This document shows, one piece after another, positions 10,031-30,336 of a DNA stretch of 64,000 nt; within the stretch, counting starts at the first letter, position 1; each line of letters begins with the position of its first letter. The position numbers and the translations under genes are program-made. The notes under the pieces were generated by a model, which was given only the letters and a program-made list of their open reading frames with translations, was not told the DNA's origin and searched no databases. The DNA comes from Rhodohalobacter mucosus (GTDB lineage Bacteria > Bacteroidota > Rhodothermia > Balneolales > Balneolaceae): the NCBI RefSeq assembly GCF_003150675.1, contig NZ_QGGB01000007.1, positions 124,001-188,000 on the forward strand. The letters run 5' to 3'.

Positions 10031-10717
10031 TTAGCCTGCGGTTTTACCCGGCTGGAGAGACCTGACCTGAATGTTGGTGTAGTGGTGATTTTTAGGCATA
10101 CTCAGAATGTGAATTACGGATTCAGCAAGATCACCGGGGCTAAGTTTATTCTTTTTTGAATCAGAAAAACCTGTATCAACAGAGCCCGGAGAGAGGCAGC
10201 TTACCTTTATTCCATAGTCGCGAAGCTCCAGATGAAGCGATTCTGTTAAACCCACAACTGCATGCTTGGTTGCACTATAGCAGGCCATTCCTGCTATGCC
10301 ATTTGTACCTGCACCGGATGAGACATTAATAATATGCCCTTCCTTTCTCTCCTTCATATCGGGCACCAGAAGCCTCGTGGTATAGAATATTCCGTGAACA
10401 TTGAGGTCGAAAAGGTTTCTCCAATCATCGGACGCCATATCTTCAAAACTACCTTTATAACCTGCCCCTGCATTATTAATGAGAATAGGTATGTGCCGGC
10501 CAAGTTTTGTTCTTGTATCCTCAAATCCTTGTTGAACGGAAAGCTCTTTTGTAAGATCGACAGAGAAGTGGTGAAAATTTTTGTGTGCAAATGCTTCAGG
10601 TTTGGTGCGGCTCCATCCTGCGACGACGGCTCCTTTTTCAATCAATGCCTTGGTTATTGAGAGTCCGATTCCGCGGCTTGCACCCGTTACCAATGCAGTC
10701 TTGTCTTTGATGTTCAT
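10031..10717 (-). CDS. Short-chain dehydrogenase/reductase (SDR)
   Basis: An NAD(P)-dependent oxidoreductase of the classical SDR class, 228 residues. Cofactor motif TGASRGIG at 11-18, structural motif NNAGAGYKG, catalytic Ser in NVSSGAGTNG and the YxxxK pair in YSATKHAV are all present; CLSPGSVDTGF follows as usual. The substrate is not predictable. It lies 23 bp downstream of the Pmp3-type gene on the same strand, so both could be on one transcript. It starts at an ATG. Confidence 0.9.
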   Translation of the reverse strand: MNIKDKTALVTGASRGIGLSITKALIEKGAVVAGWSRTKPEAFAHKNFHHFSVDLTKELSVQQGFEDTRTKLGRHIPILINNAGAGYKGSFEDMASDDWRNLFDLNVHGIFYTTRLLVPDMKERKEGHIINVSSGAGTNGIAGMACYSATKHAVVGLTESLHLELRDYGIKVSCLSPGSVDTGFSDSKKNKLSPGDLAESVIHILSMPKNHHYTNIQVRSLQPGKTAG

Positions 10718-10740
10718 ATGTGGTCGACGATTAATTTTAA

Positions 10741-10905
10741 TCAGGTATCGTGTTTAGCAATAACCCAAACAGCATGAATGATGCCCGGAATATAACCAAG
10801 AACGGTGAGCAGGATATTGAGCCAAAATGCTCCTCCGATTCCCACAGTCATAAAAACACCCACAGGTGGCAGAAGTATGGCAAGAATTAGACGGATTATA
10901 CTCAT
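10741..10905 (-). CDS. Pmp3/YqaE-family small membrane protein
   Basis: A 54-residue, two-helix membrane protein. It begins MSIIRLILAILLPPVGVFM, continues with a G/F/W-containing turn and LNILLTVLGYIPGIIHAVWVI, and ends in AKHDT. The PPVGVF and LGYIPGIIHA elements are the hallmark of the Pmp3/YqaE proteolipids, which in yeast and plants affect membrane potential and salt stress. The ATG at 10905 gives the full family length. The gene lies 23 bp upstream of the SDR gene on the same strand and downstream of the tRNA cluster. Confidence 0.9.
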   Translation of the reverse strand: MSIIRLILAILLPPVGVFMTVGIGGAFWLNILLTVLGYIPGIIHAVWVIAKHDT

Positions 10906-10979
10906 GAGATATTTGGTGTGGAGGTTAGCAGGTAAATGGAATTCAGCTTTAATAAAGGTAATCGAAGGCTAAAAAGAAA

Positions 10980-11006
10980 AATTGAAAAGGTGCAGAGGCA
11001 GCACCT
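10980..11006 (-). terminator. Probable intrinsic terminator for the minus-strand tRNA transcript
   Basis: Read on the minus strand, AGGTGC, a 6-7-nt loop and GCACCT form a hairpin directly followed by TTTTCAATTTTTC. It sits between the tRNA/tRNA-like array and the Pmp3 gene and would stop readthrough from the tRNAs. Confidence 0.6.
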
Positions 11007-11325
11007 GCCATAATCCAGGTCACCATCGGAAAATAGATCCTGGAAATTCAAAAAAAGGAGAGGAAGCGGATAAAAGGCTGGAAAAAAGGATATCTCTGAA
11101 TTAAGAACATTCGAGATAAGGAAGGGAATTGTAAACGTTTCCCATTCAGCGGAGGAATTTTTAAGTGGAACCCGGTGCTGCCGTTGTGAAAGGGTGCGGC
11201 AGTGAAAGTTGGAAAGGAAGTTCTTAGGACTGAGAAACCGGATACGGGCTCATGAATTCCAAGCCTATATCATTCGGAGTGTGGGATATTGGAATTTGGA
11301 ATTATTATCGCTGTGCGAAATTAAA

Positions 11326-11400
11326 GTACCGCGTACGGGATTTTCCCTCAGGGATCCCTATGGGGGAACCCGGTGCTGCCGCTGTGAAAGGATGCGGCAG
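11326..11400 (-). pseudogene. tRNA-Glu pseudogene with a 22-nt T-loop insertion (copy B)
   Basis: Read on the minus strand, the anticodon-arm region still contains CTTTCAC (TTC anticodon) inside a CTGCCGC/GCGGCAG stem, and the 3' side keeps AAATCCCGTACGCGGTACT as in the functional gene. Between GGGTTC and AAATCCCG, where the normal T-loop joins directly, there are 22 extra bases (11344-11365) containing the palindrome AGGGATCCCT. The 5' acceptor and D-arm are not recognisable, so it cannot fold as a normal tRNA. Confidence 0.75.
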
Positions 11401-11523
11401 TGAGAGCTGGAGAGGAAGTCGTTAGGACTGAGAGTCCGGAGAAGGGCTCATGAATTCCAAACCTATATCATTCGGAGTGTGGGATATTGGAATTTGAAAT
11501 TATTATCGCTGTGCGAAATTAAA

Positions 11524-11598
11524 GTACCGCGTACGGGATTTTCCCTCAGGGATCCCTATGGGGGAACCCGGTGCTGCCGTTGTGAAAGGGTGCGGCAG
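11524..11598 (-). pseudogene. tRNA-Glu pseudogene with the same T-loop insertion (copy C)
   Basis: Same structure as the neighbouring copy: intact 3' acceptor strand, the same 22-nt block at 11542-11563 at the same place in the T-loop, the CTTTCAC anticodon loop, and a lost 5' half. Its anticodon arm (CTGCCGCACC/AACGGCAG) differs from the other copy by a few bases but matches the truncated first unit at 11168-11202. Confidence 0.75.
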
Positions 11599-11722
11599 TG
11601 AATGTTGGAGAGGAAGTTGTTAGGACTGAGAGTCCGGAGAAGGGCTCATGAATTCCAAACCTATATCATTCGGAGTGTGGGATATTGGAATTTGGAATTA
11701 TCATCGCTGTGCGAAATTAAAG

Positions 11723-11795
11723 TACCGCGTACGGGATTTGAACCCGTGCTACCGCCGTGAAAGGGCGGCGTCCTAGACCCCTAGACGAACGCGGC
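11723..11795 (-). tRNA. tRNA-Glu (TTC), copy 1
   Basis: A complete 73-nt cloverleaf: acceptor GCCGCGT/ACGCGGT with a terminal G-U pair, D-arm GTC/GAC, anticodon stem CCGCC/GGCGG with loop CTTTCAC, and T-arm CGGG-TTCAAAT-CCCG. The CCA end is not encoded. It is the intact relative of the damaged repeats that follow it downstream. Confidence 0.93.
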
Positions 11796-11879
11796 TTATC
11801 CGTTGTGAAGCGTGTAAATTTACAGTGAATAATATAAATACGCTATACGCTTGCACACTGAGTAAATGTTCTTAGAAAA

Positions 11880-11957
11880 TGGGGAGCCTGATGGGATTTG
11901 AACCCACGGCCTCCAGGGCCACAACCTGGCGCTCTAACCAACTGAGCTACAGGCTCC
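11880..11957 (-). tRNA. tRNA-His (GTG)
   Basis: The cloverleaf has anticodon stem CCAGG/CCTGG with loop TTGTGGC, D-arm GCTC/GAGC and T-arm GTGGG-TTCAAAT-CCCAT. The extra 5' G (-1) opposite C73 that marks tRNA-His is present, and the bases after C73 read CCA, so the tail may be encoded. It lies between the two tRNA-Glu copies. Confidence 0.95.
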
Positions 11958-11992
11958 GTAAATGAAATTATCTTCGCTGTGCAAAGTTAAAG

Positions 11993-12065
11993 TACCGCGT
12001 ACGGGATTTGAACCCGTGCTACCGCCGTGAAAGGGCGGCGTCCTAGACCCCTAGACGAACGCGGC
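11993..12065 (-). tRNA. tRNA-Glu (TTC), copy 2
   Basis: The 73-nt gene reads identically to the tRNA-Glu at 11723 and even shares a similar downstream flank (GCTGTGCAAAGTTAAAG against GCTGTGCGAAATTAAAG), so it is a recent duplicate. The T-loop has no insertion. Confidence 0.93.
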
Positions 12066-12178
12066 TTTGGGTTGTTGATTTTTGATTGTCGGCTGTTGGA
12101 TGGCAACACATCGCCAACCGGTCAGGCCTATTGACTTATCAATCAAAAATCAACACTCATAAATCATCAATAAAAAAG

Positions 12179-12249
12179 AGGCGACAGGCGGATTCGAACC
12201 GCCGTACGAGGTTTTGCAGACCTCTGCCTAACCACTCGGCCATGTCGCC
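12179..12249 (-). tRNA. tRNA-Cys (GCA)
   Basis: 71-nt cloverleaf with acceptor GGCGACA/TGTCGCC, anticodon stem GAGGT/ACCTC with loop CTGCAAA, and T-arm GGCGG-TTCGAAT-CCGCC. CCA is not encoded. Confidence 0.95.
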
Positions 12250-12263
12250 TGTTAAATTATCAG

Positions 12264-12337
12264 TACGCCCGTCAGGACTCGAACCTGAAACCTACTGCTT
12301 AGAAGGCAGTTGCTCTATCCAGTTGAGCTACGGGCGC
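12264..12337 (-). tRNA. tRNA-Arg (TCT)
   Basis: 74-nt cloverleaf with acceptor GCGCCCG/CGGGCGT (terminal G-U), anticodon stem ACTGC/GCAGT with loop CTTCTAA, and T-arm CAGG-TTCGAGT-CCTG. CCA is not encoded. It lies 14 bp upstream of tRNA-Cys in the transcript. Confidence 0.94.
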
Positions 12338-12467
12338 CAAACCGGATAATTCAGAAATTTACAGTCATTTCCGGGTCCATACTTCAATAAAACATGTCAA
12401 ATAGTGAAAAATTTCTGGTCGCTCACATTAAACAAAACCAGAATTTTCTACTGTACAAAAAGTAAAG

Positions 12468-12541
12468 TCGGGGAGACAGGATTTGAACCTGCGACCCTCT
12501 GCTCCCAAAGCAGATGCGCTACCGGGCTGCGCTACTCCCCG
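12468..12541 (-). tRNA. tRNA-Pro (TGG)
   Basis: 74-nt cloverleaf with acceptor CGGGGAG/CTCCCCG, anticodon stem TCTGC/GCAGA with loop TTTGGGA and T-arm GCAGG-TTCAAAT-CCTGT. The unusual first pair C1-G72 is typical of bacterial tRNA-Pro. It is the first tRNA of the minus-strand cluster. Confidence 0.95.
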
Positions 12542-12732
12542 AATAAATCATGATGCACTGCATGGCTGCTAACCGAGGCAGTGAACAATCCGGTTTACAA
12601 GTATCATAATGTCAATGAGCTGATTTTGCCATTCGGCGGGGCTTCTGCGCCCTTCAAATCAGTTTGTCAAAAGAATTAAAAGATAAAGGATTTGAATTCT
12701 GAATGCAACGAGATGAGGTCAAATTCTTTAAG

Positions 12733-13692
12733 CTAATCTCTTATCTCCCTAAACATTTCCTGTATCAAGCCGGCGCCATAAGCCGTAAGCTGAATGAAAG
12801 CTGCGGGCACTGAAAGCAGAGCAACGTTGAGGCTTTTTGATATCCTGTAACTGTCGGTAAATAAGAGAGCGGCGTAGAGGAGATACAATAACGGGAGCAT
12901 ACCGGCAACCGGCACCCTTAAAACAAGAAAAAGCAGTGAAGCAGGTATACCGATCAGAAAAAGAACCGGGAGCAGATGGATTGTTTGAAGCTGGTCGGGA
13001 TAAAACCTCCGGATATTGACTCTTGCCCGGCCAAAGAAGTGAAGCTGCCGGAAAAACTGGCCAAAATTTGTGCGCCGTTTGTGGTAAACGTAGGCATCTG
13101 GAATAAGAGCCGTTCGAAATCCGGACTTAATGATTCGCAGGCTGAACTCAATATCTTCTCCCATTCTTGTAATTTTGTATCCTCCTGTTTGCTCAAAAAC
13201 CTCCCTTGAAATACCCATGTTAAAACTTCGGGGGTGAAACTGGCCGATTCTTTTCTTGCCGCCACGGATACCCCCGGTCGTCAATGGGGAGGTCATACTG
13301 TAACTGATGGCTTTCTGTACCGGTGTAAAAGACGGGTGAGCCCTGTCAGGACCACCCCAGCAATCTATCCTGGCCGACTTGATTTTTCGATTTACAGCTT
13401 CAAAATAGTGTTCGGGTATGATACAGTCTGAGTCAAATACGACAAAATATTCGCCCTTTGCGCGTTCAAATCCATAATTTCTTGAGAATCCTTGTCCGCT
13501 GTTTTCTTTATAGTAGTATCTTATATTCAGCTTGCCGGAATACCGTTCAGCAATGGATTCACATCGTTCATCCGAACCGTCCTCAATAATAAGAACTTCA
13601 AAATCGGTAAATGTCTGACGGGTAAGGCTGCTCAGCAGTTCGTTAATCTCATCCGGGCGATTGTATACCGGAACAATAATCGAGTAAAGCAT
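12733..13692 (-). CDS. Family 2 glycosyltransferase with C-terminal membrane helices
   Basis: A GT-A glycosyltransferase of 319 residues, probably making surface polysaccharide. Visible motifs are SIIVPVYNRPDEINELL at the N-terminus, IIEDGSDERC, the DSDCIIPEHYF metal site, and TRMGEDIEFSLRI as the acceptor/base region. The last ~80 residues hold two to three hydrophobic helices (LLPVLFLIGIPASLLFLVL; LPLLYLLYAALLF). It starts at an ATG and stands alone, divergent from the secreted protein at 13760 with a 67-bp gap. No other polysaccharide genes are adjacent, so the product is unknown. Confidence 0.87.
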   Translation of the reverse strand: MLYSIIVPVYNRPDEINELLSSLTRQTFTDFEVLIIEDGSDERCESIAERYSGKLNIRYYYKENSGQGFSRNYGFERAKGEYFVVFDSDCIIPEHYFEAVNRKIKSARIDCWGGPDRAHPSFTPVQKAISYSMTSPLTTGGIRGGKKRIGQFHPRSFNMGISREVFEQTGGYKITRMGEDIEFSLRIIKSGFRTALIPDAYVYHKRRTNFGQFFRQLHFFGRARVNIRRFYPDQLQTIHLLPVLFLIGIPASLLFLVLRVPVAGMLPLLYLLYAALLFTDSYRISKSLNVALLSVPAAFIQLTAYGAGLIQEMFREIRD

Positions 13693-29187: not shown

Positions 29188-30336
29188 ATGAACATGTTTA
29201 AAAAAATACTCCCATTCTCACTGCTTGCAGCTGTGCTTTTTGCCGGATGTGATGTAATGGACACTAACCTGGACACAGAGCCTAAATTGCAGGTTCAGAT
29301 GCAGGTCAATTCCACAGGTTCCTTTGCTAAACAACTAACAGCAAGCCAGGATGTTACCAGCTTAGAGATCACAGAAGTGAAGCTTTATGTTGAAGACTTT
29401 GAACTTGACGGAACGCGCGGTACCGAAGATTTTGAGCTGGAAGATATCATCGTAAATCTGCCGCTTGACGGTACCCCTCTGGTAATCACGGAAAAGGAGA
29501 TTCCCGCCGGCTTTTATGATGAATTTGAGCTGGAAGTGGAACGACCGGACGATGATGAATTTGTATCCGATACCGATATCATTGATGAATCTGGTCGCTA
29601 TTCCATTGTAGTAAAAGGTGCCTTTAACGGTGAAAACTTCATGTATCGCTCGAAAGAGGACTTTGAAATTGAAATGGAATTGCATCCGCCTCTCGAAGTA
29701 GGTGAAAACGAGAATACAGCGGTTGTCGTTGAAATTGATATTGACAAATGGTTCCGTGACTCATCAGGCAACCATCTGGATCCGAATGACGATAATAACA
29801 GGGACAATATCGACAGCAATATTGAAAATTCATTCGAAGGGTACGAGGATGATGAGGATGATGACGACAAATCTGAAGATTCTGAAAAGGCAGAAGCCAA
29901 GGCTTACTTCAATAATACAGGTGTTGATTCAGACGCCAGTGGGTATGCTGAGCTTGAGAAACGCACGTACCGAACCGAATTCAAGGTAGAAATTGAAGAC
30001 CTGGATGTCGGAACGTATGAATTATGGGTTGCCGGTGAAATGCGTGCTGAAATTGAGGTAAAGCAGGATGAAGACGGCACAGAAGGTGAGATCGAATTTC
30101 GCAATCCTGCAGAATCTGGTAAGCCAATGCTGGACTTTGACCCGTTGGGTGAGCTGATTACCATTGAACAGGACGGCACCGTGTTCCTTTCAGTTGAGTT
30201 CCCTGCTGAATTGACATACGACGACGACGATGACGATGATGAAGAAGATGACGATGACGATGATGATGACGACGATGATGAAGATGATGATAACGACGAC
30301 GATGACGACGACGATGATGATGAAGATGATGACTAA
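29188..30336 (+). CDS. Aspartate-rich lipoprotein A
   Basis: A 382-residue lipoprotein: signal peptide with lipobox LFAGC (Cys21). The first domain (25-220) is beta-rich and resembles DUF4382-type lipoprotein domains (LQVQMQVN, SLEITEVKLYVEDFELDG, FYDEFELEVE); this family call is tentative. A Glu/Asp/Lys linker (about 218-240) leads to a second, shorter domain of ~100 residues (YELWVAGEMRAEIEV, GKPMLDFDPLGELITI). The C-terminus is a stretch of ~39 residues, nearly all Asp with a few Glu and one Asn. The first domain is closely related to that of the next gene. A binding role for calcium or other cations is possible (inference). Confidence 0.82.
   Translation: MNMFKKILPFSLLAAVLFAGCDVMDTNLDTEPKLQVQMQVNSTGSFAKQLTASQDVTSLEITEVKLYVEDFELDGTRGTEDFELEDIIVNLPLDGTPLVITEKEIPAGFYDEFELEVERPDDDEFVSDTDIIDESGRYSIVVKGAFNGENFMYRSKEDFEIEMELHPPLEVGENENTAVVVEIDIDKWFRDSSGNHLDPNDDNNRDNIDSNIENSFEGYEDDEDDDDKSEDSEKAEAKAYFNNTGVDSDASGYAELEKRTYRTEFKVEIEDLDVGTYELWVAGEMRAEIEVKQDEDGTEGEIEFRNPAESGKPMLDFDPLGELITIEQDGTVFLSVEFPAELTYDDDDDDDEEDDDDDDDDDDDEDDDNDDDDDDDDDEDDD
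30219..30333 (+). repeat. GAY triplet tract encoding the poly-Asp tail
   Basis: About 38 codons of GAC/GAT with a few GAA and one AAC. The codons vary between GAC and GAT, so it is not a perfect microsatellite, but its repetitive form makes length changes by slippage likely. Confidence 0.8.

Follow-up and report, generated by a model that had tools for sequence, protein, structure and literature searches.

A 22-nt twin-hairpin block in the T-loops of decayed tRNA-Glu copies of Rhodohalobacter mucosus: a probable micro-mobile element of hairpin tips

The window analysed here, that is, the whole stretch of 64,000 nucleotides from Rhodohalobacter mucosus, carries on its minus strand an intact tRNA-Glu(TTC) gene followed by a tandem array in which the 3′ tail of the tRNA recurs and a 22-nt block interrupts the T-loop. 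The locus raises the question of what this block is, and of how it came to sit in the same place in successive units. The features involved are the following:

11722..11795, minus strand: intact tRNA-Glu(TTC), from which the tails derive (ARAGORN; Rfam tRNA, 61.4 bits)
11167..11739, minus strand: tandem array of 2.9 units of 198 bp (TRF, sequence comparison)
11542..11563, minus strand: 22-nt twin-hairpin insert in the T-loop, in the unit closest to the intact tRNA (sequence)
11344..11365, minus strand: second, identical 22-nt twin-hairpin insert, also between T-loop positions 56 and 57 (sequence)
11564..11598, minus strand: decayed tRNA-Glu copy with a recognisable anticodon arm and the 5′ strand of the T-stem, ending in GGGTTC (sequence; no covariance-model hit)
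11366..11400, minus strand: second decayed tRNA-Glu copy, laid out like the one at 11564..11598 (sequence; no covariance-model hit)
11167..11202, minus strand: outermost decayed tRNA-Glu copy and end of the array (sequence)
10988..11006, minus strand: terminator-like hairpin past the array, the sole one in 10700-12800 (scan; weak, 1 found against 2.1 expected in shuffles)
11992..12065, minus strand: second intact tRNA-Glu(TTC) (ARAGORN)
11880..11956, minus strand: tRNA-His(GTG), between the two intact tRNA-Glu genes (ARAGORN)

The intact tRNA-Glu(TTC) at 11722-11795 has the array on its downstream side, and TRF describes this array (11167-11739) as 2.9 copies with a period of 198, 94% matches and zero indels, in agreement with the original prediction of 198-bp tandem units directly downstream of this gene. 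Read on the minus strand, a unit runs from T-loop position 57 to the tRNA-Glu 3′ end, continues through a spacer into a decayed tRNA-Glu copy and stops at T-loop position 56. At both inner junctions, the 22-nt block splits GGGTTC|AAATCCCG on the minus strand with zero bases lost, the insertion point being between T-loop positions 56 and 57; both blocks, with their flanks intact, had been placed at exactly 11344-11365 and 11542-11563. The outermost unit ends one base into the place where the insert of the other two begins. A search of the window with 20 of the insert's 22 bases, allowing up to three mismatches, recovered only the two array blocks (0.01 matches expected). The three units differ pairwise at 13, 24 and 23 positions (both comparisons with the third unit include its end inside the intact tRNA), which makes a simple assembly copy unlikely. 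The regions around the two intact tRNA-Glu genes, 11963-12067 and 11693-11797, share 96% identity.

The earlier description of the units as tRNA-Glu pseudogenes stands as far as the 3′ tails, the recognisable anticodon arm and the decayed 5′ half are concerned, but not as a covariance-model tRNA: up to E = 5, the tRNA models matched nothing in 11000-11800 except the intact tRNA-Glu, and the units form no complete cloverleaf even when the insert is left out. With no model hit to its units, the window array also gives no support to a tRNA-like non-coding RNA, which had been offered for it as an alternative, although arrays in relatives may be of this kind. Rfam matched only intact or cut-off tRNAs in the window array and seven other loci, and its RtT model gave no hit at gathering score in the window and those seven loci, nor any up to E = 5 in 11000-11800. 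A simple terminator scan found no terminator between the intact tRNA-Glu and the array, nor within the array, and the terminator-like site beyond it, at 11006-10988, is at chance level; to judge from the letters, transcriptional read-through from the tRNA into the array is possible.

It had been proposed to look for the 198-bp unit and the 22-mer in relatives. The unit as a whole was found in the genome of R. mucosus only, which bears out part of one outcome that had been named beforehand as refuting the original prediction, the absence of the unit in relatives. The relatives gave short matches; some of these contained the 22-nt block, and pattern searches were therefore made, which revealed a dispersed 22-mer family. 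The strict pattern CCCNNNGGGATYCCNNNGGG was found in 19 of the 92 genomes of the family, which belong to 5 of its 21 genera, and a genome has at most 43 copies; the reversed control matched nowhere. At the level of the phylum, the strict 20-mer was found in 25 of 394 genomes (reversed control, 1), and the T-loop form with at most one mismatch in 22 of 394 genomes and 15 of 172 genera (control, 0). Within the family, the T-loop pattern with up to two mismatches, in a list that gives some places twice, once per strand, reaches 18 of 92 genomes and 7 of 21 genera, again with no control hit. The sample comprises one genome per species, so that these comparisons are between species only. Carriage of the element by viruses was considered and rejected, as viral contigs did not contain the exact T-loop form. 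In the literature searched, which comprised titles, abstract openings and passages with few subscription papers, no description of a 22-nt twin-hairpin element was met.

When one mismatch is allowed, the own genome contains 41 copies, of which 28 are exact and 13 use that mismatch, and loci were centred on 40 of the 41, the second window copy not being centred. The element has an intergenic bias: 4 of the 40 copies fall within an open reading frame of at least 150 codons, compared with 1572 of 2000 positions drawn at random from these loci. The flanks of the 40 copies tend to pair with each other, with a mean flank-flank duplex value of −6.80 against −4.92 (sd 0.38) in 200 re-pairings, of which the best reached −5.88; many single copies are without strongly pairing flanks. 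As a separate observation, the stretch G000:C6:224956-237232 holds six twin hairpins spaced 2.1 to 2.9 kb, several then with GTGCGGTG-like host stems.

The window insert reads CCCC-ATA-GGGA-TCCC-TGA-GGGA on the minus strand, and the architecture of the element can be written as Y-SSS-NNN-S'S'S'-A-T-SSS-NNN-S'S'S'-R, that is, two adjoining 11-nt minihairpins with a nearly constant AT centre. A stem-free search, in which only GGTTC, the central AT and RAWTCC were fixed, returned 146 hits and 131 distinct T-loop inserts. The numbers of these inserts with 0 to 6 Watson-Crick pairs were 16, 27, 30, 16, 5, 8 and 29, a two-peaked distribution that is independent of any preselection for pairing; with equal base frequencies, 0.03 inserts with all six pairs and 0.58 with five would be expected, against the 29 and 8 found. 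Among the 37 inserts with five or six pairs, the first stem is CCC/GGG in 14, GCC/GGC in 12, CGC/GCG in 4 and TCC/GGA in 4, and the second CCC/GGG in 28, GCC/GGC in 2 and ACC/GGT in 2, the others being imperfect. The stems covary: the twin adjoining hairpins score 0.308 against 0.101 when shuffled, a value reached by 0 of 500 shuffles, although the 37 inserts were preselected on twin-hairpin pairing, which favours that structure. Slid versions of the twin-hairpin structure score at most 0.080, and two of five covariation measures (both-side changes and further pair types) are not clearly above shuffles (79 of 500 and 39 of 500, respectively). A single long hairpin was also considered as the structure of the element and was rejected since its covariation (0.043, reached by 314 of 500 shuffles) is at shuffle level, though energy folding of eight stretches mostly gave a long rod, not twin hairpins.

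Outside tRNA genes, empty and filled places of insertion can be compared within one genome. Five of the 40 copies (L102, L137, L141, L148 and L155) lie within variants of the palindrome CCCCTCT/AGAGGGG. The own genome contains 46 sites of the form CCCCTCT-N(0-30)-AGAGGGG, and the gap is 2 in 42 of them, 24 in 4 and takes no other value; the gain is therefore exactly 22 bp. Among the fetched loci, 33 of these sites are distinct in sequence, the four filled ones included. One filled site (C10:82703) contains a variant of the element in which the first or second stem differs (GCC/GGC). Since the four filled sites have different flanks and two of them are matched by near-identical empty places (L148 by L124/L288, and L155 by L137), separate insertions are the best reading. 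The 2+22 spacing recurs in L125, L129, L145 and L146, where another host palindrome, GGGGAAT/ATTCCCC, is filled; an empty copy of this palindrome was found in 1 of 331 loci (L145). No duplication or loss of the target was seen at the insertions. The first host palindrome, CCCCTCTNNAGAGGGG, with its 42 empty sites (for example, G000:C8:24653/24776 and 33162/33285), often lies near CACACCCCT and is often paired at about 123 bp; by analogy, this palindrome family may be REPIN- or MITE-like.

In tRNA sequences, the places of insertion are equally precise and include three loops. A tRNA-Ser array of G009 (L175) combines an intact gene with copies that carry 22 nt in the anticodon loop (CTTG^AAAACC), one of which has an additional 22 nt in the T-loop (GTTC^GAATCC); the same two places are used in G005 (L177), within a 174-bp tandem repeat. 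The own genome provides a D-loop case (L139), in which a spare tRNA-Ser has 22 nt at GGTC^GAATGC. The anticodon loop of this spare copy (around 1539-1564) holds a different hairpin pair with the AT centre kept (CACGTAGTG-AT-CCGCCGGTTGGCGG), which suggests further families of the twin-hairpin architecture, and an intact tRNA-Ser 300 bp on provides the empty sequence for both inserts. T-loop insertions occur in Glu or His tails of G017, G058 and G075, and tRNA-His tails with such an insert are present in G017, G022 and G075.

A survey of 81 distinct tRNAs, from which loci of the ClpC-like gene search were left out, gave 52 distinct extra tRNA tails (position 57 onward), 44 of them with a twin hairpin; this is not a rate, as the loci were mostly selected by patterns that require the insert. 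Forty-two of the 44 lie downstream of the matched intact tRNA and the other two (L300) downstream of another tRNA-Ser, and the isotypes represented are Ser, Glu, Asn, Pro, Ala, His, Met, Phe, Thr, Arg and Gly. Among the eight tails without a full twin hairpin, L215 and L313 end in an apparent half of one. Loci picked for GIY-YIG genes contributed four tails without the insert (L187, L252 and two in L260) and one with it (L258). These insert-free tails are candidate empty sites (L260:870 and 1137, minus strand; L252:1500; L187:1783, minus strand). When the 22-mer was removed in silico, 48 of 52 sites yielded no tRNA, and 3 of 52 only a neighbouring intact tRNA-His that is also found with the insert present. 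At L229 (G091:C5, minus strand, about 669-575), ARAGORN finds a complete tRNA-Thr(CGT) cloverleaf only without the 22-nt T-loop insert, whose first stem is imperfect and whose centre is GT instead of AT; here the element may have entered a tRNA gene that was whole but dispensable. Hairpins of a second class (GCGAAAGCA-GTGCTTTCGC, with variants) were noticed immediately 5′ of the T-stem (GGTTC) of tRNA tails at L205, L221, L241 and L244; they also occur in apparent tRNA-Arg fragments (L012, around 1545 and 2235, and L015:1-45).

Tandem arrays of tails were also found elsewhere. In G350, which belongs to another family, an intact tRNA-Thr is followed by 11 twin-hairpin units of about 113 bp, each made of the tRNA tail, a terminator-like hairpin, the T-stem and the twin hairpin, and G091 has five such units of 111 bp after a tRNA-Pro. 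The tyrT-tyrV locus of E. coli K-12 (L325) resembles the window array in that a 178-bp unit which includes the tRNA 3′ tail is present in 3.1 tandem copies after an intact tRNA-Tyr. Its extra tails start at about T-loop position 58, and the three tRNA-Tyr tails of the repeats are preceded by the small palindromes CCCGAAGGG and GCGCAGCGC, a layout like that of the twin-hairpin arrays. The two differ in that no 22-nt AT-centred twin hairpin was found at the E. coli locus, where the RttR RNA and a small protein are annotated.

All these observations can be integrated in one explanation, to which we give a probability of about 0.75: the 22-nt block would be a non-autonomous micro-mobile element set into hairpin tips, and the array would then have been built by recombination. 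In this model, each gain adds exactly 22 bp at the tip of a sequence able to form a hairpin, namely in the T-, anticodon- or D-loop of a tRNA or at the apex of a dispersed palindrome; the element would be moved by an activity supplied from elsewhere and would enter at single-stranded tips. Most economically, the element would be joined into a single-stranded hairpin loop, whether of extruded DNA or of RNA, and the product would then be replicated or reverse transcribed. In the window, the T-loop of a tRNA-Glu copy already in decay would have received the element, after which the repeated tRNA 3′ tails would have recombined unequally to give the 198-bp tandem array. In tRNA sequences, the inserts are mostly found in spare, partial copies downstream of an intact gene, presumably because hits on a sole working gene are lost by selection. 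The small mobile or recombination-driven element that the original prediction had put forward is thus strongly supported by the dispersed 22-mer family, by the empty and filled sites and by its recurrence in tRNA loops of other species.

A more far-reaching version is offered tentatively, as we hold it to be doubtful: Bacteroidota-type bacteria would harbour a class of mobile elements of 22 nt whose insertion into the loops of folded nucleic acid follows structure, not sequence, with a step perhaps taken on RNA and followed by reverse copying. Such an RNA-level step, similar to reverse splicing into tRNA and hairpin transcripts, is considered because tRNA loops are prime targets and the insertion is clean. 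On the favoured explanation, the element would rank with the smallest mobile DNAs and would combine an exceptionally clean record of empty and filled sites with a directly checkable target rule (the hairpin tip and, in the tRNA T-loop, the place between positions 56 and 57). A phenomenon described in cyanobacteria and mitochondria would thereby be extended to a further lineage of bacteria, and there may be a bearing on the question why arrays of tRNA tails such as that of E. coli tyrT begin at the T-loop.

Among the alternatives, the one that fares best, though unlikely, is that the T-loop tails are expressed as RNAs with a function (decoys or sponges consisting of the T-arm, the acceptor strand and a terminator) and that the twin hairpin is a conserved part of this RNA instead of an insertion. 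It would fit the covarying stems and the presence of tail arrays after an intact tRNA in different families (the 11 units of G350, each of which keeps the tail, the terminator-like hairpin and the twin hairpin, and the 5 units of G091). However, members of the 22-mer family also occupy precise positions in anticodon and D-loops and fill 4 of 46 palindromes that are not tRNAs, and tails without the twin hairpin exist; within the window array, moreover, the scan detected no terminator, and Rfam recognised only intact or cut-off tRNAs there and at the seven other loci.

Two further alternatives concern the activity that moves the element. That a small GIY-YIG endonuclease is the helper, opening the loops of tRNAs or hairpins with a cut by which the twin hairpin gets in or spreads, is quite unlikely in our estimate. 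The idea draws on six insert sites (five in T-loops and one in an anticodon loop; G032:C44, G027:C66, G009:C286, G059:C13, G059:C25 and G091:C21) that lie beside tRNA tails at 55-144 bp from a GIY-YIG match, and on a frame that by eye looks like GIY-YIG (L139:1539-1862) between the spare and the intact tRNA-Ser. Yet only 1 of 30 GIY-YIG loci has the strict element, and 7 have an intact tRNA; GIY-YIG matches, UvrC-type ones included, occur in 90 of 92 genomes and are abundant in some without the strict element (10 in G001 and 14 in G030), and the gene and the insert may both just favour the downstream side of tRNA genes. It is likewise hardly probable that the element is a relic of a REP/REPIN moved by RAYT (Y1) transposases, although it is a pair of small hairpins, Y1 genes are present in 65 of 92 family genomes and the host palindromes often stand in pairs about 123 bp apart. 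Copies and Y1 counts appear by eye to be unrelated (G009, 98% complete, has 15 copies and no Y1 hit; G001 has 17 Y1 and 0 copies), inspection by eye of the ends of the 40 copies showed no GTAG-type tetranucleotide, and an element of 22 nt is small for a REP pair, a single REP measuring 20-40 bp (PMC3733652). Since the Y1 genome counts do not track the copies of the element, RAYT/Y1 was rejected as the mobiliser at the level of genome counts.

The notion that the tails are scars of integrative elements using the tRNA T-loop as attachment site, the 22-mer being a left-over att, would account for tails that start at the T-loop and for the position of 42 of 44 insert-bearing tails downstream of the matched intact tRNA, and integration-derived tRNA fragments are common (PMC9897764). 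We regard it as very improbable: it leaves unexplained the 22-mer family in anticodon and D-loops and in dispersed palindromes, as well as the different stems with kept pairing at one place. Finally, assemblers fail at repeats and the own genome is in 17 contigs, but an assembly error (collapse or expansion) or a chance local duplication of the 22-mer, either of which would have undone the original prediction, is of negligible probability in view of units that differ at 13 to 24 sites, of same-place inserts of this kind in other assemblies and of the dispersed family.

The micro-mobile element favoured here resembles several known systems in kind: by analogy, it may work like an SDR or a double-hairpin element. 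The SDR families that Elhai et al. in 2008 reportedly described in Nostoc and relatives are said to measure 21-27 nt, to occur in mixed contexts, sometimes nested, and to share, in three families, a secondary structure backed by compensatory changes. The 22-nt element is also dispersed, lies in the 20-30 nt range and has a common secondary structure with compensatory change. It is, moreover, also precise at a defined site (42 empty and 4 filled of 46), just as the insertion point of SDR5 lies precisely between nucleotides 3 and 4 of the HIP1 sequence (PMC4390886). The two differ in target, which is an octamer for SDR5 and the tips of hairpins, three tRNA loops included, for our element, and in host, the SDRs being cyanobacterial and the element belonging to a Bacteroidota-type lineage; they are likened here by their descriptions.

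With the hairpin elements of mitochondria the likeness is one of architecture only, that is, a pair of hairpins side by side in which the stems are conserved and the loops free. PMC4478555, PMC2800124 and PMC2670323 describe such elements, some of them double, dispersed in noncoding DNA, with conserved stems, freer loops and nested palindromes. Those elements belong to organelle genomes, whereas the present host is bacterial, and no membership is claimed; the yeast GC42 unit has 42 nt and the Volvox repeats average about 50 nt, compared with 22 nt here, and a putative target duplication is given for the GC clusters, unlike the 22-nt element, where none was seen. The element is also short, dispersed, hairpin-forming and intergenic like REPs and REPINs, but it is smaller, sits in the tips of other hairpins and shows no link to a transposase in genome counts. 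Background on REPINs and on elements in tRNA genes is found in PMC3116915 and PMC4755523, respectively.

Two minor observations concern other parts of the window. A search with the neighbouring ClpC-like gene led to distant relatives only, and TRF reported at 30218-30332 of the window a low-complexity tandem repeat of GAT/GACGAT.
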